This document shows, one piece after another, positions 20,790 to 37,553 of a DNA stretch of 64,000 bases. The stretch comes from Bacteroidaceae bacterium (GTDB lineage: Bacteria > Bacteroidota > Bacteroidia > Bacteroidales > Bacteroidaceae): the NCBI GenBank assembly GCA_017428785.1, contig JAFRQD010000062.1, positions 27,611 through 91,610 of the forward strand, in the 5' to 3' direction. Numbering within the stretch: the first letter of the stretch is position 1; each line of letters opens with the position of its first letter. The notes beneath the pieces were generated by a model. The model ran no database searches. It was not told the DNA's origin and was given only the letters and a program-made list of their open reading frames with translations. The position numbers were made by a program, and so were the translations under genes.

Positions 20790-23700
20790 CTATTTAACCA
20801 AGATCTTCTTGCCGCCCTTGATGTAGATGCCAGATTGCTTCACAGCCTCGAGCTTGCGCCCAGAGAGGTCGTAGATGGCGTCATCGTCGTTATTGTCCTT
20901 TATCTCGTCGATGCCTGTAATGCGATCGTAAACCATGAGGATTTCCTTCAATGTCGAGCCTTCGGGACCGAAGACAATCGTGTATTCTCTTAACGTGTTC
21001 AGCCTGCCGGTGGACATCTGCAACATCATTATGGGCTGGCCGGTGGGTGTTCCCTGAATGCCTTCTATCTGTCCTCTGGCGAGGAGAATTCCATTGATTG
21101 TCCCTATATCCAGAGCCGTGGTACTTGGCATATCGTAGATGACAGAACCGTCGTTGAAGTCATACACATTGACACCAGGAACGTTGATGCCCAATAGCTT
21201 AGTGTTCCCCTGAACGAAGGTAAATGAGCTAAAGCTGACGTCCACCTTGCCGCCACCTTCTGCCGCCGGCTTTATCTTCAGCGTATTTGCCACAGGGTCG
21301 GTAACTTGCTTTTCCCCCGTCCGGTCTAAATAGATCTGCCAGAGGTTGCCGGCAAACTCCTGCTCTCCGATAACCGTCAGCTGATAGTAAACCTTCTCGG
21401 ACTTATAGTATCTGTCGCCTTCGAAGTTCGCATAGATCTTCACATCGCCGCCAGACAGAGGCGTCACTTCGCCAGTCTCGGGATTGACGGTTGCCACGCT
21501 GTTGTCCGAAGAAGTCCACTTGACCTTCACATTTGCTATTGTGTGATTAGCCCTCGGTGTAGGCGACATGAATTTCTTACCGGGACGGGTTATGTACACC
21601 TTGTTCGGCAAAAGCAGGTTGAGAGTTCCCTTGTTGAACTTGATGGTGTAGGTGATGCTGGGAGCCGTGATGTTTTCAGAGCTAATCTGGCCTTCTCCCG
21701 TGTTGACTAGATCTACGCCTACCACCTCTTGCTCGCCAGCCATCATCCAATCCAGGTCCTTCGTTGGCTTGATGGTTACCCTCATGCCGATTACACTTAT
21801 GCTGGAACAGCCAAGTTCCCAGTCAGAGGCTTTCTGAATGCTTGTTATCGGGTTGCGTCCCACGGAGGTGAAGGTGACGGTCTGCGGTGCGATGGGCTTG
21901 CCATAGGTGTATTCGAAGACGAGTTTCGTCTTGTCGGCTTTGAGGCGATAGTCGGGACCGGAGTAGTCTGTTACGCGCGTTTCCTTGTGACTTTCATCAC
22001 GTGCACAGACACGCTGCTCCATTCCCTTCACTCTTGTAGTGGCTTCGCGGATGACTGTCCATTCGCCCCAGTCGTGGCCGAGACGCTCGAGTTTATGGCC
22101 TTTGTCTGTCATCTCTCCACAGTGGTCGCAGTATCTGTCGCCATAGTAACCATCGGATGTGCAGGTCTCTTCGCGTTCGTTCTCCCAATGACTGTTGTAG
22201 TTGATTACGCTGCCAGTTCTGGTGTCATAGTATCCATGCGCAACAGGTATTGCCTTGCCCCTGACGCTCAGATTGCAACGGGTGCAGATAAAGTCGCCAC
22301 TATAGCCGCGAGCAGAAGTGTCAGTTACTTTACCAACACCGGCAATGTAATTGGTACAATAAACTGTCTGTTTTGTTCCTGGTACAGGTGTATTGGACAG
22401 AACATGACCCAGAGGAGCGATGGGCTGGCCGGGAATAGTTACCTTTCCGCAATCCAGGCAGACGCGGTCACGCTTATGTCCGTAGAGGGTACAGGTGGGA
22501 TTCATCTGGTCATTCCAGCCTTCTCTGGTGTGGTGGCATTCTTCAACTTCGGCGACTACGGTAGCAGGACCGTTAGGCATTACGAATGTGGTAGTCTGAG
22601 CAGTCGGATTACTAAATACTGTGCGTGGGACTGTAATCCAGCTATTGCCATAAGGAATGTCGCTACTTCCATCCCAGCTAACCAGGTCGTGCCACTTCTT
22701 CAGTTTCACGGGGTATGGGTAGCTGTCGTCGCCATTACCATACTGGGCGGCAATGGGGTCATAAGTAATCGTGACTGTCTCGCCTGGACGGGCATAGAAC
22801 TTGTCGGCCGTTGCGCCAATCATAAGGATGGGATAGGTGCCATTGGGGAAGGTCTTATACTCACTGTAGAAACAGGTGACGCACTGCCGCGACATGGCTC
22901 CTGGATTATCCGATGTCGGAGTGCCTTTCACAGACCAGAACATCCAGGCGTGGTTCTCGTTCCTCACAGCATCGCAGGATTTGCAGCGGAAGAAGTGGTA
23001 GTCGCTGTAGCGGCCCCAATACTTGGAGTTGGGTTCGCGAGCCTTACCGCTCTGCTGTATCCACATATTATTGTCGTTGAGCGTATACCATACGTGGGTG
23101 TGAGGCAGCTTGTCGATCTTCTCGGTCTTCGTCATGCCACACTTGGTGCATGTAATCTCCTTCTGACCAGGATGCTTCTCGGTGGCAGGCTGTGTCACTA
23201 CGGTTTTGTCCCAAAGGTGGGCTTCGCGGGTGGCTGGGCTCAGCACGCCGCACTTGCAGGCGAACCAGTGCTCTGTGTTGTTGTAGCGAGGTTGGTCATA
23301 CTTATGCGTGTGTCCGGGCTCAACCTTTGGAATGACGGTCTGCTTCTTGTTGAGGCAGTCCTGGCATTTCTGTTCGTACAAGCCTGTTTGGGTGTCTGTG
23401 GCAGGACGAATGAGTGTCCATTCTCCAAAGCGGTGCTTCGAGTTGGACTTCACTTCCTCGCAGCCGTCACCATTGCAATGATAGCTGTGCGTTCCGTCAC
23501 CATTGTCCATATACCAGCCATACACATGCTGAGCATTCTGCTTGGCGCGTCTTGTCGTCACGCTGCCCTTGTCGTTGGTGATGACGCAATAGTACTCATA
23601 TGTATCATAGCAGGAGCAACCGAAAACAAAAACAGTCAATCTGTTAGTCGTTGCACCGCTAATCTCATCCTTGCCGCTGATATCGTAATAAAACGAATCT

Positions 23701-25583
23701 CCTTGCTTGTCCACTAACTTCGTTGGAGTAGATGAGCGTATAAGTCTGTACCATTGATAAGTCAGGTTCTTGCCTCCTGCCTTCACGGTATAGGTGGCAT
23801 AGCGTGGCACCTCGTTGTAGGCTATGTCGCTCGTCTTGCCCTCGTAGTCCTTGGGCTGGTCGATGATGTAGGGCGAGCCGTCTTCGGGTATGGGAACATA
23901 AGGTATGGAGACTGTTCCTGTGAACTGCTCGCAGACGGCGCAGTACACGTTGGCTGTGCCGTTCAAGTGCATAAGGGGATTGGGCTCGCTCACGGTAACG
24001 GTCTGTCCTTCGGTGTGGATGGCTTTGTTGACGGCAGCGCCGCAGTCCTCGCAGACCTTCCAGTGAGCCTTGCCGTCGCTCTCCCATTCGCTGCTAATGC
24101 TGTTGTGAGCGCAGTCGGCATTGTGGTTGCACTTCTCCAGGCATTGCTCGTCTTCGTAGCACCAGTGCTCGGCAAAGTCTTCGCTCTCCACGCAGAAGTC
24201 GTGGTCGCAACCCATCGACGAGGTGTTGGCACCGCAGCAATCGTTGCAGAGCTCGCAATATTCGCAGCGGTCGAAGCCTTCGTAGCAGTCGCCGCATTGC
24301 TGGCAGATGAAGTGGTCGGAGTCGTCCTCGAAGGAACTGTCGTCGGGGCAGTAGCCGTGTTCGCAATGGTAACCGTCGGCACAATCCTCGCACTTGCCGC
24401 AAAACTCGCAGAGTTCGTCGGGCTCGAAGCAGTTGCCGCAGTCGGAGCAGAGATGCTCGTCCCATTCGCTGCTCTCGAGACATATTTCATGCTCGCAATG
24501 ATAGTCTTGCTGGCAATCTTCGCAGAGCATGCAGTCCGGGCATTCCGTGTCCTCGGGGCAGGTTCCGCACTCGGGACAGGCATGCTCTTCGTAGTCGCCC
24601 GACAGGAGGCAATAGCCGTGCGTGCACCCCGAATCTTCAGATTTTTCGTTGCAGCATTCTTCGCAAAGGCCACAATCATCGCAAATCTCTTTGCCGGAGG
24701 CTTCTACGCAATCGCCGCACTCACCGCATATCCAATCGTTGTCTTCGCAGCAGTGGATGCAGTGTTCGCCGTCTTGCAGGCACCATTGTATATTGTTGCC
24801 GTAGCCGAAGCAGAAGTCACATTCGGGACAATGATTCTCGTCCATATAGCATCCTTCGCAGAGGCCGCACTCGGAACATATCTCCTGGTCGCAGTTGTGG
24901 CACTCGGGGCAGTGGATGCCGTCCTCGCCGAGGTCTCCCTCGAGGCATAAACCGCAGATGTTGTGCTCCATGCAGGCGTTCTCGGCCAGATAGGTCTCCT
25001 CGCCGGCCACAACCATGCAGCCGCCACAGTTCTCGCATTGCACTTCGGAGCAGTCTGTGCAATGCCAAACGACCATGTCGGTACAGCCGCACTCCTTTGC
25101 ACCGCTTCTGAAAGCCAGGGTACAATAGTTACAGAACATCTCGGGATACTGGGCCATCAAACTCTCCCAACAGGAATCACACGTGCGGAATCCGAGGCCT
25201 AAATCGTAGCTCTCATCGTCGTCCAAACAGGCTCCGCAGTCGGCACAGTGATGGCGGGTATAGCATTCGTCGTTGCCATTTTCGCTGCAATAGCCGCATT
25301 CTTCGCAGAAGTTTTCCATCAGATTGTTCTCGATGTCACTCCAGATATCCGATGCATACTCTGTAAACGGGTCATAATCTTGTTCTTCGCCATAGCGGGC
25401 TCCGCACTCCTCACAGGCAAAGCACAGATACACCGTTCCTTCCCCGTCGGCATAGGACTCGTGAACCCAGTAGTCGTCGGGTGTCCAGGCAAAGGCCATG
25501 CCCGTATGCAGGAGCAGCAGCGTCAGAATAGCGAGGATGCTCCTCCCTGGCGGCATCCAGCGCTTAGCAGTTGTCGTTTTCAT
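20790..25583 (-). CDS. very large secreted cysteine-rich protein with CxxC repeats, Ig-like domain and sorting tail
   Basis: The 1597-residue precursor has a signal peptide ending near GMAFAW. By hand count residues ~53-500 hold about 80 cysteines, mostly CxxC pairs, in an acidic background. Between about 310 and 500 a unit of some 45 residues repeats: C-x2-H-x2-C, then H-x-C-x2-C-G-x-C, then C-x2-C-x2-C-x2-C. Residues ~500-1270 have spaced HWxxCxxCG-like modules (AHWKVCEDCGAAVNKAIHT, HWFACKCGVLS, HKETRVTD) known from gut surface proteins. A Big_2-like Ig domain follows (KVKWTSSDNSVATVNPETG, about 1380-1450). It ends YDLSGRKLEAVKQSGIYIKG-GKK, a sorting-type tail. Multiple exported metal sites or disulfides are implied; function unknown. 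Promoter TATCTTTG at 25702-25709. Confidence 0.75.
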   Translation of the reverse strand: MKTTTAKRWMPPGRSILAILTLLLLHTGMAFAWTPDDYWVHESYADGEGTVYLCFACEECGARYGEEQDYDPFTEYASDIWSDIENNLMENFCEECGYCSENGNDECYTRHHCADCGACLDDDESYDLGLGFRTCDSCWESLMAQYPEMFCNYCTLAFRSGAKECGCTDMVVWHCTDCSEVQCENCGGCMVVAGEETYLAENACMEHNICGLCLEGDLGEDGIHCPECHNCDQEICSECGLCEGCYMDENHCPECDFCFGYGNNIQWCLQDGEHCIHCCEDNDWICGECGDCVEASGKEICDDCGLCEECCNEKSEDSGCTHGYCLLSGDYEEHACPECGTCPEDTECPDCMLCEDCQQDYHCEHEICLESSEWDEHLCSDCGNCFEPDELCEFCGKCEDCADGYHCEHGYCPDDSSFEDDSDHFICQQCGDCYEGFDRCEYCELCNDCCGANTSSMGCDHDFCVESEDFAEHWCYEDEQCLEKCNHNADCAHNSISSEWESDGKAHWKVCEDCGAAVNKAIHTEGQTVTVSEPNPLMHLNGTANVYCAVCEQFTGTVSIPYVPIPEDGSPYIIDQPKDYEGKTSDIAYNEVPRYATYTVKAGGKNLTYQWYRLIRSSTPTKLVDKQGDSFYYDISGKDEISGATTNRLTVFVFGCSCYDTYEYYCVITNDKGSVTTRRAKQNAQHVYGWYMDNGDGTHSYHCNGDGCEEVKSNSKHRFGEWTLIRPATDTQTGLYEQKCQDCLNKKQTVIPKVEPGHTHKYDQPRYNNTEHWFACKCGVLSPATREAHLWDKTVVTQPATEKHPGQKEITCTKCGMTKTEKIDKLPHTHVWYTLNDNNMWIQQSGKAREPNSKYWGRYSDYHFFRCKSCDAVRNENHAWMFWSVKGTPTSDNPGAMSRQCVTCFYSEYKTFPNGTYPILMIGATADKFYARPGETVTITYDPIAAQYGNGDDSYPYPVKLKKWHDLVSWDGSSDIPYGNSWITVPRTVFSNPTAQTTTFVMPNGPATVVAEVEECHHTREGWNDQMNPTCTLYGHKRDRVCLDCGKVTIPGQPIAPLGHVLSNTPVPGTKQTVYCTNYIAGVGKVTDTSARGYSGDFICTRCNLSVRGKAIPVAHGYYDTRTGSVINYNSHWENEREETCTSDGYYGDRYCDHCGEMTDKGHKLERLGHDWGEWTVIREATTRVKGMEQRVCARDESHKETRVTDYSGPDYRLKADKTKLVFEYTYGKPIAPQTVTFTSVGRNPITSIQKASDWELGCSSISVIGMRVTIKPTKDLDWMMAGEQEVVGVDLVNTGEGQISSENITAPSITYTIKFNKGTLNLLLPNKVYITRPGKKFMSPTPRANHTIANVKVKWTSSDNSVATVNPETGEVTPLSGGDVKIYANFEGDRYYKSEKVYYQLTVIGEQEFAGNLWQIYLDRTGEKQVTDPVANTLKIKPAAEGGGKVDVSFSSFTFVQGNTKLLGINVPGVNVYDFNDGSVIYDMPSTTALDIGTINGILLARGQIEGIQGTPTGQPIMMLQMSTGRLNTLREYTIVFGPEGSTLKEILMVYDRITGIDEIKDNNDDDAIYDLSGRKLEAVKQSGIYIKGGKKILVK

Positions 25584-26208: not shown

Positions 26209-28194
26209 TTATTTCACCAGCACTTTTTGTGTATTTCCGTTGATGCTGATGATGTGGATTCCCGATTTCAGCAGCGGCCCTTCTTCCCCGCTGATGCCCT
26301 GTGCTTCGAGTCTTCCTTGTGTGGAGAAGACATAGTAGGGCGTGCCTCCCGGAATGCCGCTGATGAAGATGCGACGCCCCCAGACATGTATCTCTGCCCT
26401 CGACCATTGCTCATTGACCGTAGGCCGTTGGCTCGTGGCGAAGGCTTCCTCGTTGTATTTCAGCTTGTTGTCCATCCATGCGATGCGTCGCTCCAAGTAG
26501 TCCTTGACGTTCTGCACCTCGGCTTCGTAGCTGCCCCATAGCTTCGGGTTCTGATGGACCTTCTTGTTCATGATGGGCCATCGGATGAAATTGAGCCTTT
26601 GCGACTCCATCAGCTCGTTTGCCATGCTGTCGACATAAGCCTGCAATTCCCTGACGTTGATGCCGTTGAAGTAGCGGACATTCGCCCACATCTCTTGCAG
26701 CGCGGCTGCTGCGCTATAGTCTGATATCAGCATGCGGTCCACCAGAGTCTTGAAGTTGCCCGCATAGGAGCCTTTGGTGCGATAGATGTAGTCCGAGAGG
26801 TTGCAGATGGGGTAGGTGCGGTCGTCGTTCTCGAAGGCGAGGTCGAAGTCCCAGACAGGCTCCACGAAAAACTGCGTCTCGTAGCGGTCCTTGTACATGT
26901 AGGTGCTCCAGTAGGTGTCGGTGTTGCCGGAGAATTCTCCAACGATGAAATGCCTCAGGAAGCTTGGCATGTTGAGGTATTGCCGATAGCCCCGCTCTGG
27001 GTCTTTCCAGTAGCTCTTGTAGAGCGTGTTCTCGAAGGCGCCGTAGTATTGCTTGATGTAGTTGAACTGCAGCGACAGGATGTCGTCGGCGTCGGGGTAC
27101 TTGACGGTGACCGGCGTGTTGCGGTTGGAGGTGAAGTGCTTGGGCTCTCTCGAGGCGTAGGCATCAATCTCAATGAGGTAGCCGCCGGTGAGCATGTCGC
27201 CCTCCGTGCAGGTGCTGTCCATCTCGTAGATGTCCACGCGGTGCGGGCGGATGTCGATGGCGTCGCAGAACTGGTAGCAGCCCTTGTACTCGCCGTTCAT
27301 GAAGACATCGACAGGCTGGCAGTATGGCGTGAAGCCGATGCCCACGCGCTTGCTTATCTCGAATGCCAGGCAGTTGCGCAGCAAGGTCTTGTCGCCATAG
27401 TTGTTGATGAGCGTCCATTTCCTCGCTAGGGCTTTTGCGTTGAGAGGGCGGCGCTTCTCGCTGAACTTGATGCGATAAGGCTTCTTGGGGTGCGTCATCG
27501 AGTTGTTGCCTCTGAGGCGCGACGTGCCGTCCTGCTCGAGGATGGTCTTGCCGTCGTTCGAGATGATGCTGATGTTCGACTCAAGTTCGTTGACCTTGTC
27601 GACAGGATCGCTGCCCGATGCGGTGTGTATGACGACTGTCGGCAGGTTCGTTACCTGGTAGAACTGGCTGTCGTCGCCTGTCGAGTCGTACCCCCAGAAC
27701 TCCAGCTCCGCCATCGTGCTGCGCGTGCCTTCGATGCCTTTGTAGCGGACATAGCGGAAGGCCCGCGAGACATTCACGTCGGTGTATGTCATCTCCCAGG
27801 AAGGCGCCTCCTCCTTTATCATGAAGAGAGGCAGGGCGTCGGAGAAGTCGGGCTGGTTGGCGCCTTCAAAGAGGCCGAGCAAAGTGCGATCGGGGCCATT
27901 GCTGCGCGTGCTTGCGGCAAAGCCAATCCTCGTGATGATGTATGTGTTCCCGAGGTCGAGCCCCACCCAGCCACCGCTCGTAGAGGACGCAGCGAAGTAG
28001 GTCGTAAGGTCTCCGTCGAACGCCCATGGACCGATGTTCACGGTGGAAGAACTGCCGCCGGTGCTGTAGTTGTAGCCTTTCGGCGTGCCAATGACCGTGC
28101 CCGTCAGCTTGTGTCCTAACGGGAAGGCAGGCAGGCTGACAAGAAGGAGGAGGAAAAAGAAGAGCCCTCTGTTAGTATGTGATCTCTTGTGCAT
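26209..28194 (-). CDS. secreted CotH-kinase-family protein with N-terminal discoidin-like domain
   Basis: I start at ATG 28194 (MHKRSHTNRGLFFFLLLLVS), which gives a clean signal peptide and 661 residues; an upstream ATG at 28224 would add ten residues. Residues ~30-180 are F5/8C-like (AFDGDLTTYFAAS, WVGLDLGNTYIITRIGFA). The CotH domain follows from about 185: SRLRGNNSMTHPKKPYRIKF, KWTLINNYGDKTLLRN, VDVFMNGEYKGCYQ, and VEPVWDFDLAFENDD. CotH proteins are atypical kinases that phosphorylate secreted proteins in spore formers; the substrate in Bacteroidales is unknown. The C-terminus ends with a short sorting-like tail (SGIHIISINGNTQKVLVK). The start overlaps the GH43 gene by 23 bases, indicating coupled translation. 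Confidence 0.85.
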   Translation of the reverse strand: MHKRSHTNRGLFFFLLLLVSLPAFPLGHKLTGTVIGTPKGYNYSTGGSSSTVNIGPWAFDGDLTTYFAASSTSGGWVGLDLGNTYIITRIGFAASTRSNGPDRTLLGLFEGANQPDFSDALPLFMIKEEAPSWEMTYTDVNVSRAFRYVRYKGIEGTRSTMAELEFWGYDSTGDDSQFYQVTNLPTVVIHTASGSDPVDKVNELESNISIISNDGKTILEQDGTSRLRGNNSMTHPKKPYRIKFSEKRRPLNAKALARKWTLINNYGDKTLLRNCLAFEISKRVGIGFTPYCQPVDVFMNGEYKGCYQFCDAIDIRPHRVDIYEMDSTCTEGDMLTGGYLIEIDAYASREPKHFTSNRNTPVTVKYPDADDILSLQFNYIKQYYGAFENTLYKSYWKDPERGYRQYLNMPSFLRHFIVGEFSGNTDTYWSTYMYKDRYETQFFVEPVWDFDLAFENDDRTYPICNLSDYIYRTKGSYAGNFKTLVDRMLISDYSAAAALQEMWANVRYFNGINVRELQAYVDSMANELMESQRLNFIRWPIMNKKVHQNPKLWGSYEAEVQNVKDYLERRIAWMDNKLKYNEEAFATSQRPTVNEQWSRAEIHVWGRRIFISGIPGGTPYYVFSTQGRLEAQGISGEEGPLLKSGIHIISINGNTQKVLVK

Positions 28195-29281
28195 CAGTCG
28201 TTGGTCCCTCGACCGTGAGGACACCGTTCTCGTCGATGTTGATCTTGTCCATCAGGACGACGCGTTCTCCCGGATTGCTTGTCATGCGACCGTGATAGAC
28301 GCAGTAGCGATTGCCATCGGGCATCGTAATCACCATGTTGTGGCCTGTGCCCATCACCTTGCCGCCGCGGCTCACGTTCTCCTGCAGCACAGGATTGTTC
28401 TCTGCCTTCGTGAAGGGACCGAGTGGGTTGTCGGCTGTGGCATAACCTACTGCATAGTACTGTCCGCCATAGTGGTTCGCGCTATACATTATATAATATG
28501 TGTCGCCTTCGCGGAAGAGGTAGCTGCCTTCCGTCCAGCGGCGGTTCACCTCGCCATGCGTGGCGCTGCGGCTCTCCCATTCGCTCTGCTTGTCTTCAAG
28601 TTCTGTAGGCGGACAGAGCAGCAGCACAGGCTCTCCGATGACGCCACTGAAGTCGGGCTTCAGCTCGACGCCATAGACCCAGCTCTCCTCTATCTCCTGG
28701 AAGTTGCCGGCCTGGCGCAGGCTGTCTGCTATCTCGCTCTCCACGGCATGCTTATAGCAGCAGCGGCTGAAGTAGAGATAGCACTTGCCAGTCTTGTCGT
28801 CGAAGTAAACATTGGCATCGATGATGGGATAGGGGGGATTGAAGACAGGGCGGTCGTAGAGGTCCTTGAAGGGGCCTGCAGGAGAATCGCTGACGGCCAC
28901 ACCGATCTTGAAGTTCTCGCCTTCGTGCGTCGGGTTCTCTCTGTAGTTGGAACTATAGAAGAGATAGTACTTGCCACCACGCTCGTAAACCTCCGGCGCC
29001 CAAAAGCAGTCGAGGTTCCACTGGTTGGGGCTGCCGCCTTTATACACTTGTCCGCACGAGTCCCACTCTACGAGGTCGTCGCTCACAAAGGCTTCGAAGC
29101 CGTCGCCGAGCGAAGTGCCGTACATGTAGTAACGCCCGTCGCTGGCATGCAGCAGGAAGGGGTCGCCGAACTTCAGCGGGATGGGGTTCGTCACGGTGCT
29201 TGTCTTCATCTCGGCCTCCTTGCCAGTATTGCAAGCGAGGAAGCATAGGCACAGAAGGGCCATTAAGAGTTTAGAGTTCAT
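28172..29281 (-). CDS. GH43-type glycosidase lipoprotein
   Basis: The 369-residue protein begins with a lipoprotein signal peptide and lipobox CFLAC (Cys about residue 17). Five-bladed beta-propeller motifs of GH43/62 enzymes are seen: PLKFGDPFLLHASDGRYYMY (catalytic-base Asp region), CFWAPEVYERGGKYYLFYSS, PIIDANVYFDDKTGKCYLYF (pKa-modulating Asp), RRWTEGSYLFREGDTYYIMY (proton-donor Glu) and GTGHNMV. It should act on arabinan or xylan-type chains at the cell surface; linkage cannot be deduced. It overlaps the downstream CotH gene and follows a gamma-carbonic-anhydrase gene by 21 bases, so all may be one transcript. Confidence 0.88.
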   Translation of the reverse strand: MNSKLLMALLCLCFLACNTGKEAEMKTSTVTNPIPLKFGDPFLLHASDGRYYMYGTSLGDGFEAFVSDDLVEWDSCGQVYKGGSPNQWNLDCFWAPEVYERGGKYYLFYSSNYRENPTHEGENFKIGVAVSDSPAGPFKDLYDRPVFNPPYPIIDANVYFDDKTGKCYLYFSRCCYKHAVESEIADSLRQAGNFQEIEESWVYGVELKPDFSGVIGEPVLLLCPPTELEDKQSEWESRSATHGEVNRRWTEGSYLFREGDTYYIMYSANHYGGQYYAVGYATADNPLGPFTKAENNPVLQENVSRGGKVMGTGHNMVITMPDGNRYCVYHGRMTSNPGERVVLMDKINIDENGVLTVEGPTTDAQEITY

Positions 29282-29898: not shown

Positions 29899-31716
29899 TT
29901 ATATATGTTGCGATGGCATCGCAACACACTGAACCTTGAGCCACTGGCTGTCTTCTTTATTAAGAAGAGGAGAGAGAGCGTCATATACCTTCTTGTGATA
30001 TGCTTCGAGGTAGGCTATCTCTTCCGGCGTCATCATGTCCCAGAGGACGGGGGTGAGGTCGATGGGGCAGAGCGTGAGCGGTTCGAGACGCAGGAAGCGG
30101 CCGAACTCTGTTTCGCCGCCGTCGATGATGAGCATCGTGTTCTCGATGCGCACGCCATGCTTGCCTTGGCGATAGATGCCGGGCTCGTTGGTGACCGTCA
30201 TGCCTGCATGCAGCGGGGCGGGCTTCCATGTGTGGCGAATCTGATGAGGCCCTTCGTGGACGCACAGATACGAGCCGACGCCGTGCCCGGTGCCGTGTCC
30301 GTAGTTGATGCCGTGCTGCCACATCGCATAGCGAGCCAGCGCGTCTATCTGCGTGCCGCTGATGCCGTCGGGGAACCTGGTGAGCGCCAAGCGTATGTGT
30401 CCCTTGAGCACCAAGGTGTAGTCGAGTCGTTCCTCGTCCGTCAGCGGACCGAGCGCGATAGTTCGTGTGATGTCGGTCGTGCCGTCCTGGTACTGAGCGC
30501 CGCTGTCCAGCAGCAGCAAGCCTTTGGGCTCGAGCACGACGTCCGACTCCGGAGTGGCTTCGTAGTGGACGATGGCGCCATGCGGTCCGTAGGCGGCAAT
30601 CGTGTCGAACGAGAGGCCTCGGTACAGGTCTTGCTCTGCCCTCAAAGCCGTCAGCTTCCTGTCGATGCTGAGTTCTGTCTCCTTTCCTGCTTCTACGGCT
30701 GGCTTCAACCAACGCAGGAACTTCACCATCGCCACGCCGTCGCGAATCATCGCCCTGCGGAAACCAGCTATCTCGGCAGGGTTCTTGACCGACTTCAAAG
30801 ACCCTACCAAACCTCCCCTTAAAGGGGAGGCTTTCTGAGCCTTGTCCTCTCCCTTTAAGGGAGAGATAGAGAGGGTCTGGATTTCTCCGTATGGTTTTAC
30901 CCTTACACCTATTCTTTTTAGGTAGTCCTTTACGCTGTCGTCGAGCTTTTCGCTGTCGATGAAGAGCGTCACCTCGTCCTGAGTGAGCAGGACATAGCTG
31001 ACGAAAACGGGGTTGCAATGTACGTCGGAGCCTCGCATGTTGAGGAGCCAGGCTATTTCATCCAGTTGGGAGATGAGGATGCTGTCGGCGTTCTGCTCGC
31101 AAAGCGCCTGCCGCACGCGCTCTATCTTGCTTTCGGCCGACTCTCCGGCGAACTCCAAAGGCTGAATCTCCACCTTGTTCTTGGGGATAGGCGGGCGGTC
31201 TGTCCAGAGCTCTTCGGCAGGGTCGAGGTCCGTCCTGAGCAGGATGCCGGCCTTGCCCAACGCAGACCTCAGCTCCTCTATCTCGGCTGGCGTAAAGACT
31301 TCACCGTCCACTCCGACCGTGTTATTATTGAAGATTGAAGATTGAAGATTGAGGTCACAGCCTTCCGCCTCCTTTTCAATTTTCAATTTTCCATTTTCAA
31401 TTTGGTCTGTAAGCCAAGTGGTGATGGAAGGTGTCTCCGGCAGTCCGTCCTTCATGAGCGTGAAGGGTGTGCCTTCGAGCTGCTGGGCGGCGGCGATGAA
31501 ATAACGGCTGTCTGTCCAAAGCGCTGCGTCGGAGAGGGTGACGACGGCGGTTCCGGCACTTCCGTCGAAGCCCGAAATCCACTTCCGCGTCTGCCAATGC
31601 TCGGGCACATACTCGCCCTGATGCGGGTCCGTGCTTGGGAAGATGAAGGCACTCAGGCCGTTCCGTTGCAAATAGTCGCGTAGTGCGTTAACTCTTTCAG
31701 CGATGTGTGTTGCCAT
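29899..31716 (-). CDS. M24-family Xaa-Pro aminopeptidase with two repeat-derived in-frame insertions
   Basis: The 605-residue cytosolic aminopeptidase P-like enzyme has two creatinase N-terminal-like domains and a C-terminal pita-bread domain. The metal ligands are DSGAQYQDGTTDITRT, HGTGHGVGSYLCVHEGP, TNEPGIY and RIENTML. Residues ~105-133 (IENGKLKIEKEAEG...) are the translation of an AATTGAAAATTG-type repeat, and residues ~279-306 (SISPLKGEDKAQKASPLRGG) are the translation of a TCCCCTTAAAGGGGA palindrome. Both sit in surface-loop-like positions of the N-terminal domains and keep the frame. The core catalytic motifs are intact, so the enzyme is probably active. It removes N-terminal residues ahead of proline. 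Confidence 0.88.
   Translation of the reverse strand: MATHIAERVNALRDYLQRNGLSAFIFPSTDPHQGEYVPEHWQTRKWISGFDGSAGTAVVTLSDAALWTDSRYFIAAAQQLEGTPFTLMKDGLPETPSITTWLTDQIENGKLKIEKEAEGCDLNLQSSIFNNNTVGVDGEVFTPAEIEELRSALGKAGILLRTDLDPAEELWTDRPPIPKNKVEIQPLEFAGESAESKIERVRQALCEQNADSILISQLDEIAWLLNMRGSDVHCNPVFVSYVLLTQDEVTLFIDSEKLDDSVKDYLKRIGVRVKPYGEIQTLSISPLKGEDKAQKASPLRGGLVGSLKSVKNPAEIAGFRRAMIRDGVAMVKFLRWLKPAVEAGKETELSIDRKLTALRAEQDLYRGLSFDTIAAYGPHGAIVHYEATPESDVVLEPKGLLLLDSGAQYQDGTTDITRTIALGPLTDEERLDYTLVLKGHIRLALTRFPDGISGTQIDALARYAMWQHGINYGHGTGHGVGSYLCVHEGPHQIRHTWKPAPLHAGMTVTNEPGIYRQGKHGVRIENTMLIIDGGETEFGRFLRLEPLTLCPIDLTPVLWDMMTPEEIAYLEAYHKKVYDALSPLLNKEDSQWLKVQCVAMPSQHI
30799..30882. repeat. palindromic repeat inside the M24 peptidase gene (insertion 2)
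   Basis: ACCTCCCCTTAAAGGGGAGG and CTCTCCCTTTAAGGGAGAG lie between outer arms AGACCCT and AGGGTCT. The block is the same class as the intergenic GGGGAGGGG repeats, sits within the coding region, and is read in frame. Confidence 0.8.
31318..31404. repeat. A/T-rich repeat inside the M24 peptidase gene (insertion 1)
   Basis: TTGAAGATTGAAGATTGAAG and TTTTCAATTTTCAATTTTCC are strings found otherwise only in spacers of this window (for example near 3230 and 55150). Here they are read in frame as ENGKLKIEK and NLQSSIFNNN. Confidence 0.8.
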
Positions 31717-31730
31717 ACTTAGCGTGTTAT

Positions 31731-31825
31731 GTTCGTTGCTGCATCATGATAAATCAATTGCTGCATCATGATAAATCAATTGCTGCATCATGATAAATCA
31801 ATTGCTGCATCATGATAAATCAATC
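31731..31825. repeat. ~22-bp palindrome array, four near-identical units
   Basis: Four tandem copies of TTGCTGCATCATGATAAATC, starting with GTTCGTTG, fill the gap between the M24 gene start and the end of the channel::CotH gene. This is the longest and most regular array of the family. Confidence 0.85.
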
Positions 31826-34800
31826 AACTCCCCCTGCGGTGTTGTGTGACGGGGAAGGCGAACTTGCGTCCTCCCTTGATGTAAATGCCGTGAGACGGCG
31901 TGCCGAGGATGCGGCGGCCGCTGAGGTCGTACCATTCATCGTCAGGCCGTTTCCCGTCTGCCAACTGGTCGGGGATGCCGACGGGATTGTCGTTGCGGTA
32001 TGAGTCTCCGTAGTACCAGACGGGCTGATGCCTGTTGTCGGGCACGGGATAGCTGTCCTCGTCGAGTGTCTGGAACCAGGCCTGCTTCCCATCCGTCCTG
32101 CCGGCATTGAGCTCGTAGCACAGCTTCCCGCTTCGCATGTCGTAGTAGTCGGTGCTTTTTGCATCGGCAGACACCTGGGCGTTCCAATCCGTGTAGTAGT
32201 ATGTGTCGAGGACAATGGCTTTGCTGTTGTTGCGGCAGAGGATGTCGCCGCCGTTCGAGCTGATGTTCATGCTGCCCTTCATGAGGCAGTTTGATATGAA
32301 TCCTGTCGCCGTAGCCCAGCCCACGAGTCCTCCGCAGCAATCTACTGCGTTGCCGTTTATGCTGCCGGCGAAGATGCAATCCTGCAGCACGCCGATGCCA
32401 TCAGCCTCGCTGAAGAGGCCGGTCAGCCCGCCGTGAGTGCCGTCGCCGCTGATGGTGCCGTTGATGTCGATGTAGCTCTGGCATCGGAGCAGCGTGCCGC
32501 CCAGCAGTTCGGCAGCAAGGCCGGCAAACTTCTGGCTTGTGGTTATCGTGCCACGCACAATGAGGTCTTGCACCGTTCCCGACAGGTGGCAGAAGAGTCC
32601 GGCATAGTCCGCATTTCGAACCAGCGCGATGGTGATGGTGTGGCCGGCGCCGTCGAAGGTCCCGCTATAAGTCTTGCTTTGTCCGATCATCGTGGAGGGA
32701 TAGGCGGTGAAGTCAATGTCGTCGGTCAACACACCGCAGATGTCCGTATATCCCTGGTCTATCAGGTGTGCGAACTGATTGAGCATTTCTGCCGAAGCAA
32801 TCATGTAGTATCCGCGTTCGTCGCGTGGCAAGTATTCCAACTTGATGCGTCCGCAGTACTGACAGATGCCGTTCAGGAAGTTGTGCTCGTCCTGCATGTT
32901 GAGCGACGCGTCGTTGGTGAAGTCGCCGATGGTGGTGTAGGGCGTGCCGTCGCAATGTACGTGGGAGAAGCAATAGACAGTCTTGTGCGTCGTGTCGGGC
33001 ACGGGAGAAATGTCTGTGCCGAGTGTCTGCCTCCACGATGTACTGCCCGGCTGACAGCCTTCCAGCATGAAGCAGGCCTCGCCGTACATCACCTGGTTCT
33101 CTGTCAGAATGGTGACATCGCCGCATGCATTCGAGGCGTCCCAGTTCCCCAGGAAGTAGTTGTTCGTGGATGTGACATTGTTGCTGTTGCGAGCCAGCAG
33201 GTCGCTGCCGCTGGTGCTGACTGTGAAGTTGCTCGTGATGAGGCAGTTCGAGATGTTGGTCGAGCCGCTTGCCCATCCCGATACGCCTCCGCAACAGTTC
33301 GTTCTCGTGCCGGTTATGCTGCCGCTGATGAGGCAGTCGCGGACAATGGTCCCAGTGTTCGAGATGCCCATTATGCCGCCGTGTGTGCCGTCGCCGTTAA
33401 TCGAACTGACAATCTTCACACGGCTCTGGCACCGCTCTATCGTGGCATTCTCTGTCTGTGCCGCTATGCCGCCGGCATACTTGTCGGATGTCGTGATAGT
33501 GCCTTCCGTGATGAGGTCGTGCACATAGCCGGAGAGGTAGCGGAACAGACCGGCATATTGCTCCGTCCGGCTCTGGTTCAACTTGATTTTGTGCCCTGCT
33601 CCGTCGAACTCTCCCTTGTAGTAACTGCCGTTGCCTATCATGGTGTTCCGATAGGAAGAGAAGTCGATGTCGGCCTTCAGCACAGCGCCGAGCGATACTT
33701 GCCCCGAGTTGACGCGATTGGCGAACTCAGCCAAGTCGGCCGCCGAAGCAATCTCCATAACCTCCTGCTCCTCGCCGCTTGTGTCGTTGTTGATGAATCT
33801 GTCGAGCCACGCGACACGGTTCTCCACGTACTCCTTCATCCATCCCACCTCGACTTCATACGAACCTCCGGCTCGCGGATTGACCTGTATCAGTTGGTCC
33901 AATATGGGCCACCGCATAAAGTTCAGGCGTTGGGATTGCATCATCTCTGCCGCCATCGAGTCGATGTATGCGGTGAGACTCTCGGCGGTAATGCCCAAGT
34001 GCTCTCGCGCATCGTTCCACATCGCCGCCATCGAGTCGCGAAGAGCTTTGTCGGAGAACAGCCTTTTGAGCAATGCCCGCGAGTTCCCTGCGCCGCCACG
34101 GGCAAGGGAAAGGAAGTCCCCGAGGTCGTTCGTCGGGAAGTTTCGGTAGTCGTTGTCGAAAGCATTGTCAAAGTCCCAGACAGGTCCGACACGGAATAAG
34201 TCCTCGTTTCGCTCTTTCGTCAGATAGCAACTCCAGAAGGCATCGGGATTGCCAGCCAGCTCTTCTGTCAGGAAGTACTGCAGAAAGCTCCTCTCGTCGA
34301 GTCGTGAGCGGAAGCCCAACACAGGGTCGTCGAAGTTGGATGCCAGTATCTTCGCCTCCATCAGGTTGAACTCGCGACGGATATACGCCGCCTGTTCTGT
34401 CACAATCTCATCGTCGCTCGGGCTCTTGATGGTAATGGGATTGCCTGCCGCACTTGTGAACCATGAGGCTTCATTGCTGGCGTAGCCGTCAAGCTCAAGC
34501 AGGTAGCCACCCGTCAGCGCCTCGCCTTCGGTGTCGGAAGGCTGCATCTCCCAGATATCGATGCGGTTCCTGTCAACAGACAACTGGTCGGTCAGTTGGT
34601 AACAACCGCGGTATTCACCGTTGACTATGACGTCCACCGGTTCGCTCCACGGCACGTAGTCCATCCCCATTCGACGCGCTATCTCGAATGCCACGAGGTT
34701 GTGCATCAGGGTTTTGTCGTCGTAGTTGTTGATGAGCGTCCATTTCTTGGCTTTCGCCGGCGAACGCATATCAGAGTTCCTGAAGATGCGGTGTGACTCG

Positions 34801-36383
34801 GTGAACTTGATGCGGTAAGGCTTCTTGGGGTGCGCCATCGAGGCATTGCCGCGGAGTCGCGATGTGCCGCTCTCTTCCTGAATCATCGTGCCGTCAGCAT
34901 ATATGAAGGTGAAGGACGAGGCGATTTCGTTCACCTTGTCGTAGGGCTCCACATTGTCGACGGTATGAAAAGAGACGGTTGGCAGGTTGGTCACCTGATA
35001 GAAGCGTGTGTCGTCGCCTTCGCCAGCATGCCCATAAAACGCAACTTCCGCTATGTTGCACCGAGCGTCGGCAGGACCGACATAGCGCACATAACGGAAG
35101 CCTCGCGACACATTCACATCGGCATAACTCATGCTGCCAATCGTGCCTTCTTGGTCTATTAAATAAAGTGGGACACCGTCCAGGAAGTTCGGGTCGTTAG
35201 CCCCTTCAAAGAGAGCCAGAAGCATTCGCCTCGGCCCAAGGCCATCGTTGCGAGGCGACCAGCCGACACGGGTGATGACGTGCGGCTCTCCAAGGTCCAG
35301 CCCGACCCAAGTCCTGCTTCGTTCGTAGGAAGCAAAGAAGGTGTTGAGGTCGCCGTCGAAGGCATCGGCCGCTGTATTGACGATCGTGCTGGCTTGCCCT
35401 GTGGAGTAGTCAACGCTTACGGCTGTGCCAATCACCGTTCCTGAAAGCAGTTTGTCCTGAGCGCTCAGCGTGAAGCAGGGCATCAGCAAGAGCAGAATCA
35501 GGGCCAGCGGCGACTTTGTGTTTATCAGATTCTTGTTTGTGTCTTGCTTCAAGCCACAGAAAGGACAGAAGTGTGCGTCGAAGGGTAGGGGAGAGCCGCA
35601 TTCGGGGCATAGCTCTTTCTTGTGTTGGACTTTGTGGTCATGCACCATCTGTGCACTCACGATACCCGTCGGCACAGCCATGATGGTGTAGCCCATCAGC
35701 ATGACTATGGCAGAAAGTACGCGGCCGAGGAACGTGGCAGGAGCGATGTCCCCGTAGCCAACTGTCGTCATCGTCACGACGGCCCAGTAGATGCTGGTCG
35801 GTATGTCGGTGAACGGCGTGTTGGGAATGCTGCCTTCCACCATATACATCAGCGTCCCCATACTGATGACCATGATGACCATGAAGAGGAAAAAGACGCC
35901 AATCTTCGGGGCGCTGATGATGATGGAACGCATCAGGAGGTCGCCTTCCTGAAGGAAGCTGAAGAGCTTGAACACGCGGAAGACACGGATGAGGCGGAAG
36001 GTGCGCACCACCATAAGGTAGCGAACAGGGCCGAAGACCCATCCGATGTAGAGCGGCAGCGTGCTGAGCAAGTCAATGATACCAAAGAAGCTGAAGGCAT
36101 AATCGCGTGGCTTGTCGGAGCAGTAAAGGCGGCAAAGGTACTCGAGGGTAAAGAAGAATGTGAAGACATACTCCAATACGGTGAACACCAGCTTTGCCTT
36201 GGGCGGCATGCCCTGCAAGCTTTCCAATATGACAATCAGTATGCTTGCGACAATGCTGCAGAGCAACGCGACATCGAAAGCCTTCCCAAGCGGTGTGTCG
36301 CTTTGGAAGATAATGACGCGCAGCTTCTTTCGCAATGCCTCATTATGCATGGCTTTCTGCCACAGCCTCCGTATCGTGTTCAT
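31824..36383 (-). CDS. fusion of a voltage-gated-type ion channel with a secreted CotH-kinase/GLUG protein
   Basis: One open frame of 1519 codons. Residues 1-245 are a complete six-helix channel with an Arg-rich S4 (VVRTFRLIRVFRVFKLF) and the K+ selectivity filter TVGYGD at 207-212. Residues 259-277 are a zinc ribbon (CPECG...CPFCG), the usual end of such channels. Residues ~291-308 then form a second hydrophobic signal-peptide-like segment (SPLALILLLLMPCFTLSAQ). A full CotH protein follows: F5/8C-like domain (~315-450), CotH motifs SRLRGNASMAHPKKPYRIKF, KWTLINNYDDKTL, GPVWDFDNAF (~505-745), and two GLUG-type blocks (~860-1480). The CotH part parallels the protein at 26209-28194 from its signal peptide onward. 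The tail HGIYIKGGRKF is extended by AFPVTQHRRGS. The gene lies 6 bases after nagA. Frame error is the main alternative. Confidence 0.82.
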   Translation of the reverse strand: MNTIRRLWQKAMHNEALRKKLRVIIFQSDTPLGKAFDVALLCSIVASILIVILESLQGMPPKAKLVFTVLEYVFTFFFTLEYLCRLYCSDKPRDYAFSFFGIIDLLSTLPLYIGWVFGPVRYLMVVRTFRLIRVFRVFKLFSFLQEGDLLMRSIIISAPKIGVFFLFMVIMVISMGTLMYMVEGSIPNTPFTDIPTSIYWAVVTMTTVGYGDIAPATFLGRVLSAIVMLMGYTIMAVPTGIVSAQMVHDHKVQHKKELCPECGSPLPFDAHFCPFCGLKQDTNKNLINTKSPLALILLLLMPCFTLSAQDKLLSGTVIGTAVSVDYSTGQASTIVNTAADAFDGDLNTFFASYERSRTWVGLDLGEPHVITRVGWSPRNDGLGPRRMLLALFEGANDPNFLDGVPLYLIDQEGTIGSMSYADVNVSRGFRYVRYVGPADARCNIAEVAFYGHAGEGDDTRFYQVTNLPTVSFHTVDNVEPYDKVNEIASSFTFIYADGTMIQEESGTSRLRGNASMAHPKKPYRIKFTESHRIFRNSDMRSPAKAKKWTLINNYDDKTLMHNLVAFEIARRMGMDYVPWSEPVDVIVNGEYRGCYQLTDQLSVDRNRIDIWEMQPSDTEGEALTGGYLLELDGYASNEASWFTSAAGNPITIKSPSDDEIVTEQAAYIRREFNLMEAKILASNFDDPVLGFRSRLDERSFLQYFLTEELAGNPDAFWSCYLTKERNEDLFRVGPVWDFDNAFDNDYRNFPTNDLGDFLSLARGGAGNSRALLKRLFSDKALRDSMAAMWNDAREHLGITAESLTAYIDSMAAEMMQSQRLNFMRWPILDQLIQVNPRAGGSYEVEVGWMKEYVENRVAWLDRFINNDTSGEEQEVMEIASAADLAEFANRVNSGQVSLGAVLKADIDFSSYRNTMIGNGSYYKGEFDGAGHKIKLNQSRTEQYAGLFRYLSGYVHDLITEGTITTSDKYAGGIAAQTENATIERCQSRVKIVSSINGDGTHGGIMGISNTGTIVRDCLISGSITGTRTNCCGGVSGWASGSTNISNCLITSNFTVSTSGSDLLARNSNNVTSTNNYFLGNWDASNACGDVTILTENQVMYGEACFMLEGCQPGSTSWRQTLGTDISPVPDTTHKTVYCFSHVHCDGTPYTTIGDFTNDASLNMQDEHNFLNGICQYCGRIKLEYLPRDERGYYMIASAEMLNQFAHLIDQGYTDICGVLTDDIDFTAYPSTMIGQSKTYSGTFDGAGHTITIALVRNADYAGLFCHLSGTVQDLIVRGTITTSQKFAGLAAELLGGTLLRCQSYIDINGTISGDGTHGGLTGLFSEADGIGVLQDCIFAGSINGNAVDCCGGLVGWATATGFISNCLMKGSMNISSNGGDILCRNNSKAIVLDTYYYTDWNAQVSADAKSTDYYDMRSGKLCYELNAGRTDGKQAWFQTLDEDSYPVPDNRHQPVWYYGDSYRNDNPVGIPDQLADGKRPDDEWYDLSGRRILGTPSHGIYIKGGRKFAFPVTQHRRGS

Positions 36384-36389
36384 AAACTA

Positions 36390-37553
36390 TTAGAAGAGTG
36401 TGTTCTCGATTATCGTGCCCATCTGCCAGACGCAGCGAACCTTGAGCTTCTCGTCGAGGATGAGCACGTCGGCATCCTTGCCGCGAGCCAATGCACCCTT
36501 ACGTCCGAAGACGCCCATGATGTGTGCCGGTGTTTCGCTTGCCATGCGGACGGCGTCCTCGAGAGGCACTTCCGCTTGCTGTACCATGGTGCGGACAAGG
36601 CGGTCGGTTGTTGCGATGGAGCCGGCGAGGGCGCTGCGGTCGGAGAGCTTTGCCACTCCGTCCTCGACGATGACGCGCTCGTCGAATGCCTTTGCGTCAG
36701 GTCCTGCGGCAGCCACAGCCAAGGCGTCGGTGATGAGTGCCATGCGCTCAACGCCCTTAATCTTGTATGCCATGCGGAGGATGGTGGGCGGCACATGGAT
36801 GCCGTCGGCAATGCATTCTATGGTCATGTCGTCGATGAGGTAGACGCTCTCGACTGTGCCTTCGTATTTGTACCCCATCTTGTTGTGGAAGCCAGGCATC
36901 GCGTTGTAGAAGTGTGTGACATGTGTGAAGCCTGCTTCGAATGCGGCCTTCACGTCGTCGTATTCTGCGTTGGTGTGTGCAATGCTTGGCAGGATGCCTT
37001 TCTCTGCGCAGTAGCGTCCGAACTGCAATGCTCCTGGAAGCTCAGGTGCAGCGTCCCAGCGTGTCAGGCAATCCGAGTGTTCCACGATGGGGATGTACTC
37101 GTTGGGGTCTGGGTTCTTTATCCATTCCGGCATCTGTGCCCCAGCCTTGTTGGGACTGAGGTAGTGGCCTTCGAGGTGCAGGCCGAGGATTGGGGAGTCC
37201 TTCTCCTGCATAAGGCTGTTGCAGGTCTGCACTGCCTTCTCGATCATGGGCACAGTGCTGCTTGAGAGTGTCGGGAAGATGCTGGTCGTGCCATGCTTGG
37301 CGTGAGCTGCCACAGCCACCTTGAAGGCTTCGGGAGTGCCTTCCTGGAAGTCTCTGCCGCCGCCGCCGTGAACATGTATGTCGATGAATCCGGGCACGAC
37401 ATACATGCCTTTGGCGTCGATGAGGTCTGCTCCGATGACGGCCAGGTCACAGTTCGTCACCTCAAGTATCTTGTTGTCTCGCAGAATGATGCTGCCGTTC
37501 TTGAGCCATCCTTGGGGCGTCAGGATTTTGGCATTGATGATTTGTGTTAGCAT
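36390..37553 (-). CDS. nagA: N-acetylglucosamine-6-phosphate deacetylase
   Basis: The 387-residue amidohydrolase has PGFIDIHVHGGGGRDF (metal-binding HxH), HLEGHYLSP (Glu ligand), AHTNAEYDDVKAAFEAGFTH and THFYNAMPG (His ligands), and ITDALAVAAAG (catalytic Asp). It deacetylates GlcNAc-6-phosphate in the cytoplasm, feeding amino-sugar catabolism or recycling. It is followed six bases later by the channel::CotH gene and preceded by glmM on the same strand, so amino-sugar metabolism links the first two. No clear -7 element is seen in the 59-base gap to glmM. Confidence 0.9.
   Translation of the reverse strand: MLTQIINAKILTPQGWLKNGSIILRDNKILEVTNCDLAVIGADLIDAKGMYVVPGFIDIHVHGGGGRDFQEGTPEAFKVAVAAHAKHGTTSIFPTLSSSTVPMIEKAVQTCNSLMQEKDSPILGLHLEGHYLSPNKAGAQMPEWIKNPDPNEYIPIVEHSDCLTRWDAAPELPGALQFGRYCAEKGILPSIAHTNAEYDDVKAAFEAGFTHVTHFYNAMPGFHNKMGYKYEGTVESVYLIDDMTIECIADGIHVPPTILRMAYKIKGVERMALITDALAVAAAGPDAKAFDERVIVEDGVAKLSDRSALAGSIATTDRLVRTMVQQAEVPLEDAVRMASETPAHIMGVFGRKGALARGKDADVLILDEKLKVRCVWQMGTIIENTLF

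Follow-up and report, generated by a model that had tools for sequence, protein, structure and literature searches.

FbcH of Bradyrhizobium is a cytochrome b/cytochrome c1 polyprotein with proven cleavage by signal peptidase, and its products are subunits of one complex. To our knowledge, few bacterial polyproteins rely on an internal signal peptide. Here we describe a gene of comparable layout in 64,000 nucleotides (hereafter the window) of a draft genome from a Bacteroidaceae bacterium (GCA_017428785.1, contig JAFRQD010000062.1, positions 27,611 to 91,610). The gene (window positions 31824..36383, stop included, minus strand; 1519 codons, ATG start) encodes a six-helix K+-type channel followed in frame by a CotH kinase. 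As in FbcH, a membrane protein and a protein predicted to be exported share one frame and are joined through an internal signal peptide, which is the arrangement that defines FbcH-type polyproteins; unlike FbcH, the gene pairs a channel and a kinase that have no known joint function, and its cleavage is predicted. Among papers naming both "CotH" and "potassium channel", judged by title, we found none on a CotH-channel fusion. From the sequence comparisons below, we consider it likely that the gene encodes one natural polyprotein, which would be cut into a K+-type channel and a secreted CBM62-CotH kinase.

The channel-CotH fusion is real and conserved. An earlier note on this DNA had claimed an in-frame fusion of two complete proteins in a gene of 1519 codons, and both the length and the joint are as it described, since positions 31824-36383 hold a single minus-strand frame and no stop interrupts the joint. 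A search with residues 1-480, which span the joint, covered 139 genomes of the genus; some match was found in 105, and 23 of the 139, the window genome included, have the fused order of channel, signal segment and CotH in one frame without a stop. The 22 fused relatives are 79-89% identical, with matches that run the full length or begin at residue 3, and among the matches listed, the remaining ones cover one half or the other. A scan of the named genome contigs gave 70 loci, and the 22 that match across the joint belong to the same 22 relatives. The joint, for which the note had proposed a look at a second assembly, is thus fused in 22 further genomes from several assembly projects, whose sources include yak, water buffalo, sheep and roe deer according to the record titles. 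Among the matches listed for 399 genomes of the family, five are full-length, all of this genus. Channels in two genomes (G085 and G073) lie in long open frames and were considered as fusions; they were rejected, as these frames extend upstream.

The pattern at the joint points to a cut. The note had also seen a second signal-peptide-like hydrophobic segment after the channel, and this corresponds to residues 293-308 (35460..35507, minus strand), which we read as the h- and c-region of an internal signal peptide from the residues at -1 and +1 and from a hydrophobic core kept in all 23 joints. It is preceded by a variable linker or signal n-region (residues 281-292; 35508..35543, minus strand), supported by the joint alignment and by the ratio of non-synonymous to synonymous substitution rates (dN/dS). 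In each joint, 26-43 codons separate the invariant ribbon cysteines from the presumed cut, with the hydrophobic core at the end of this stretch; in the window protein the presumed cut falls after Ala308, between window bases 35460 and 35459. Of the 23 joints, 22 have Ala at position -1 and one has Gly; position +1 is Gln in 18 (window protein included), Glu in four and Lys in one; and position +2 is Asp in 20 of the 23. Among the columns compared, variability peaks at position -2 (entropy 3.00, versus 0.26 at -1). A Bacteroidetes Q-rule for signal peptidase I substrates is described in two papers (PMC5837995, PMC10653852). The window protein has the features of this rule, namely a hydrophobic core, a small residue at -1 and Gln at +1, and the pattern across the joints fits the rule and signal peptidase I, and the segment has the appearance of an intact signal peptide. 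The window genome encodes a Peptidase_S26 gene and matches the M28 family three times; one of the matched frames starts like a lipoprotein and, judged by eye, could encode a candidate glutaminyl cyclase.

Selection differs between the joint and the domains on either side. The dN/dS values, computed from those 42 of 253 pairs whose dS is below 1, are rough because pairwise dS is often high (median 1.34, with 40 of 253 pairs not computable); they are 0.10 for the channel, 0.05 for the ribbon, 0.41 for both the linker and the signal segment, 0.13 where the mature kinase protein begins, 0.09 for CBM62 and 0.14 for the kinase domain. The channel and the kinase domain are therefore under purifying selection and the joint drifts.

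In the mechanism that we propose, the ribosome would make the six-helix channel, which would be inserted co-translationally with its C-terminal zinc ribbon staying in the cytoplasm; the internal signal peptide would re-engage the Sec machinery and export the CBM62-CotH kinase-repeat protein from the cytoplasm; and signal peptidase I would cut after Ala308, releasing the kinase, with a Gln at its N-terminus that could cyclise to pyroglutamate, from a channel that keeps a hydrophobic tail. The suggestion of the note that the topology could carry the kinase outward is plausible, with a cytoplasmic channel end followed by an export segment. Its idea of a channel lastingly tied to the kinase is the less likely outcome, because the Ala|Gln cut-site pattern is conserved, and the link between the two is best read as biosynthetic rather than as a lasting tether. 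Several points weigh against a cut polyprotein. Position +1 is other than Gln in five of the 23 joints, and seven stand-alone orthologues of the kinase carry Glu or Asp there (by eye); position -3 is Leu in eight and Met in one of the 23, which is tolerated and not ideal; and the uncharged runs at the joint span 10-20 residues, the longer of which would on their own be compatible with a membrane anchor. In addition, the signal-peptide call is based on composition and conservation, the structure model across the joint is poor (mean predicted local distance difference test score, pLDDT, 49.5), and the high pairwise dS counts on the same side.

The alternative that fares best is that the joint stays uncut and the second hydrophobic segment serves as a seventh membrane helix, each subunit keeping an extracytoplasmic glycan-binding kinase; tethered in this way, the kinase could act near the channel as a sensor or modifier of the cell surface. 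The conserved continuous frame and the plausible N-in/C-out orientation would suit such a protein, as would the five joints without Gln at +1 and the uncharged runs of up to 20 residues in some members. However, Ala at -1 in 22 of 23 joints amid variable neighbours, followed by Gln in 18, goes beyond what anchoring alone would need, and the channel occurs without the kinase in five relatives. We regard an uncut joint as unlikely. Equally unlikely in our view is its corollary, in which the chain remains at least partly uncut and a glycan-binding kinase on the outer face would physically couple the state of the channel to phosphorylation at the surface.

It is less probable still that the kinase is made mainly from an internal start near the joint and that the fused reading is incidental. 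The earlier note had pointed to the TTG in CGLKQ as a possible start of the kinase, and at this position 15 of the 23 members do have TTG (13) or ATG (2); in addition, most fused members have further ATG, GTG or TTG codons inside the stretch from ribbon to cut, including within the signal segment, and all seven stand-alone orthologues have an ATG shortly before the signal peptide. Nevertheless, the other eight members have a non-start codon at the CGL position, so that the proposed start does not hold across the fused members; two of the 23 (L023, L024) have no ATG, GTG or TTG between ribbon and cut site; and no internal start codon is conserved across the 23 joints. Moreover, the frame is preserved despite a stretch length that varies from 26 to 43 codons. 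Within the first 26 codons of this stretch, the +1 frame contains a stop in 22 of the 23 joints and the +2 frame in eight.

The channel half is assigned by sequence to the voltage-gated K+-type channels, with K+ selectivity and voltage dependence predicted. It occupies residues 1-258 (35610..36383, minus strand), as supported by Pfam, by Kv channels in the PDB and by invariant columns. In the fused protein, searched with a Pfam reporting threshold of E <= 0.01, Ion_trans matches residues 34-246 (1.8e-31) and Ion_trans_2 residues 168-245 (2.1e-14); the S4 ladder consists of R127, R130, R133, R136 and K139, and the selectivity filter reads TVGYGD. The filter and the S4 arginine ladder are invariant in the alignment columns of all 23 fused proteins, and a pattern check recovered both, together with the four ribbon cysteines, from the window protein and every one of its 22 named fused relatives. 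The six helices and TVGYGD filter of the note are in agreement with these data. In the PDB, the channel matches Kv4.2 best (1.6e-25) and also KvAP (1orq; 1.4e-19), and it resembles both in its six helices, S4 ladder and TVGYGD filter. Unlike them, it ends in a zinc ribbon, after which comes a protein with an export signal. The zinc-ribbon-like cytoplasmic end spans residues 259-277 (35553..35609, minus strand), with Cys259, Cys262, Cys273 and Cys276 invariant in 23 of 23; zinc-ribbon Pfam models match about residues 254-279 and score under their cut-offs. In another genus, the same channel family occurs with a C-terminal NUDIX domain (Pfam, 2.2e-12) replacing the zinc ribbon (L135:815-2176 in G265, also in G207 and G291; three of 19 genomes, 99-100% identity), and in the same 19 genomes the NUDIX part alone was matched in six more and the channel alone in one. 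This NUDIX-tailed channel recalls TRPM2.

The kinase half begins with a CBM62-like galactose-binding-type domain at residues about 328-458 (35010..35402, minus strand), which matches CBM62 in sequence and fold; the F5/8C Pfam model falls under its cut-off in the fused protein. CBM62 of Clostridium thermocellum Xyl5A (2yb7, 2yg0) sits on a xylanase, and here the domain sits on a kinase, with binding predicted. The CotH domain (PF08757) covers residues 509-860 (33804..34859, minus strand; E 8.5e-40, 137.7 bits against a curated cut-off of 23.8) and has the CotH kinase fold. Its two conserved motifs, N-x-D and W-D-F-D, 23 residues apart, contain Asp714 and Asp737; they were found by pattern in 21 of the 23 fused proteins and by eye in the other two (L048, L049), where Ser replaces the Gly of the strict pattern and the paired aspartates are kept, which makes 23 of 23. 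Passages of one paper describe the D228 and D251 mutants of Bacillus subtilis CotH as inactive (PMC7821199). The two aspartates of the window protein have the spacing of D228 and D251, and the second stretch aligns to 5jd9; because of this alignment and spacing, we equate Asp714 and Asp737 provisionally with D228 and D251. The spore-coat CotH of Bacillus (PDB 5jd9/5jda) is only about 15% identical to the window kinase, which, unlike it, follows a signal peptide and a CBM62-like domain and is joined to a channel. The substrates of the kinase are plausibly surface proteins near galactose-containing glycans. The C-terminal repeat region (31827..33773, minus strand) is GLUG-like by eye from its translation, and no Pfam family is found there at E 0.01; of the CotH/GLUG protein described in the note, the CotH part is thus upheld by Pfam and the GLUG part is not. 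At E <= 1e-40, CotH is matched six times in the genome, counting the fused gene, which points to an expanded family whose other members lie at 26209-28224 in the window and on contigs C23, C29, C42 and C50. The paralogue at 26209-28194 does open with its own signal-like segment by eye, as the note had said, yet closer separate relatives exist: its CotH region is 49% identical to the fused gene, versus 64-65% for the stand-alone orthologues.

Another explanation, compatible with cleavage, is that an earlier joining left the kinase half as a passenger now in decay; it is missing in five relatives nested among the fused ones and two fused members are shorter (1195 and 1203 amino acids). However, the low dN/dS of CBM62 and of the kinase domain and the paired aspartates retained in every fused member make this a slim prospect, slimmer even than an internal start. 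An assembly or sequencing artefact in the window genome, a draft of 71 contigs estimated to be 84% complete, can practically be dismissed, as the identical joint recurs in 22 other genomes at 79-89% identity from several projects, giving fusion in 23 of 139. The two shorter fused genes are those of L047 (1203) and L055 (1195), and at the fused-gene end of L047, L055 and L041 the repeat-region match overlaps the match to the next gene, PepP, by 26 bases.

Returning to the likely polyprotein and its origin, we compared loci with one half. As far as contigs and matches reach, the gene order (names by eye) is GH31, GH43, PMM, NagA, the channel, the kinase half where present, PepP, a carbonic-anhydrase-like gene and GH43. 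In the window, the NagA-like gene (36390..37553, minus strand; name by eye) lies directly upstream, 6 bases before the channel ATG, and serves as a flank in the gene-order comparison. The downstream neighbour is the aminopeptidase-P-like PepP gene (29899..31716, minus strand; name by eye), which in five relatives is also the first gene matched downstream of the bare channel. In these five (L052, L053, L054, L056 and L091), the channel has its own stop and a tail that is not hydrophobic, PepP follows, and the locus has no kinase half; this suggests that the channel does not need the kinase half. In these draft genomes, the best CotH matches are 54-56% identical in four, and one has none at 1e-40. 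In a tree of PMM, NagA and channel, the five bare-channel loci are nested among the fused ones, and the starred branches force at least three changes. The bare-channel tails of L052, L053 and L056 end near a shared P-A/E-Q-D-x-T-I-K, which may be what kinase loss left of the Ala-Gln-Asp joint.

A stand-alone kinase query at E <= 1e-200 matched 30 of the 139 genomes, namely the 23 fused and seven unfused, with one match each. In the seven unfused genomes, no more than 38-82 codons of open frame precede the matched region, and they hold an ATG before a signal-like segment and no channel. Separate genes for the two halves, which the note had proposed to seek in related genomes, are thus found, the channel alone in five relatives and the kinase alone in seven genomes. 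One stand-alone orthologue (L136:3637-7365, G123) has an F5/8C-type domain and CotH, with similar repeats by eye, and is 65% identical to the window kinase half; it differs in having its own ATG and signal peptide and in lying at another locus, between serine dehydratase-like and amidophosphoribosyltransferase-like genes (names by eye), and the L137 copy has the same downstream neighbour. These observations speak against stop-codon loss between neighbours, the origin suggested by the note: the fusion occurs in 23 of 139 genomes, the bare channel adjoins the aminopeptidase-P-like gene rather than CotH, the L136 orthologue lies elsewhere, and none of the 60 named loci L033-L092, some cut by contig ends, has a separate CotH gene directly beside the channel.

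Two trees disagree on whether the stand-alone or the fused form came first. In the CotH tree, stand-alone copies fall inside the fused clade (approximately unbiased test, p 0.0171, 0.00581 and 0.0179; post hoc, with distant outgroups). In a tree of PMM, NagA and channel made by a quick method, seven loci (L061, L062, L063, L066, L067, L071 and L073) are sister to the fused clade, of which L062, L067 and L073 come from stand-alone carriers and L061 from a genome without a stand-alone match; such a topology would be consistent with a single fusion, ancestral to the fused clade. In these seven loci and L075, a different CotH-repeat gene, located around 1.6-4.4 kb within the loci, stands upstream of PMM, and its matched part ends roughly 3.6 kb before the unfused channel. 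Elsewhere in the window, 20790-25583 (minus strand) encodes a secreted-looking protein of 1597 residues with a very long cysteine-rich CxxC stretch.

The relatives offer natural comparisons, with five that carry a channel locus lacking the kinase half and seven genomes with an unfused kinase half. Cleavage of the polyprotein predicts an N-terminal pyroglutamate on the kinase, and frames of this kind should be annotated with caution and not be taken for single receptor-like proteins. Should co-production of the pair serve a purpose, membrane potential would be linked to extracytoplasmic phosphorylation in gut and rumen Bacteroidales.
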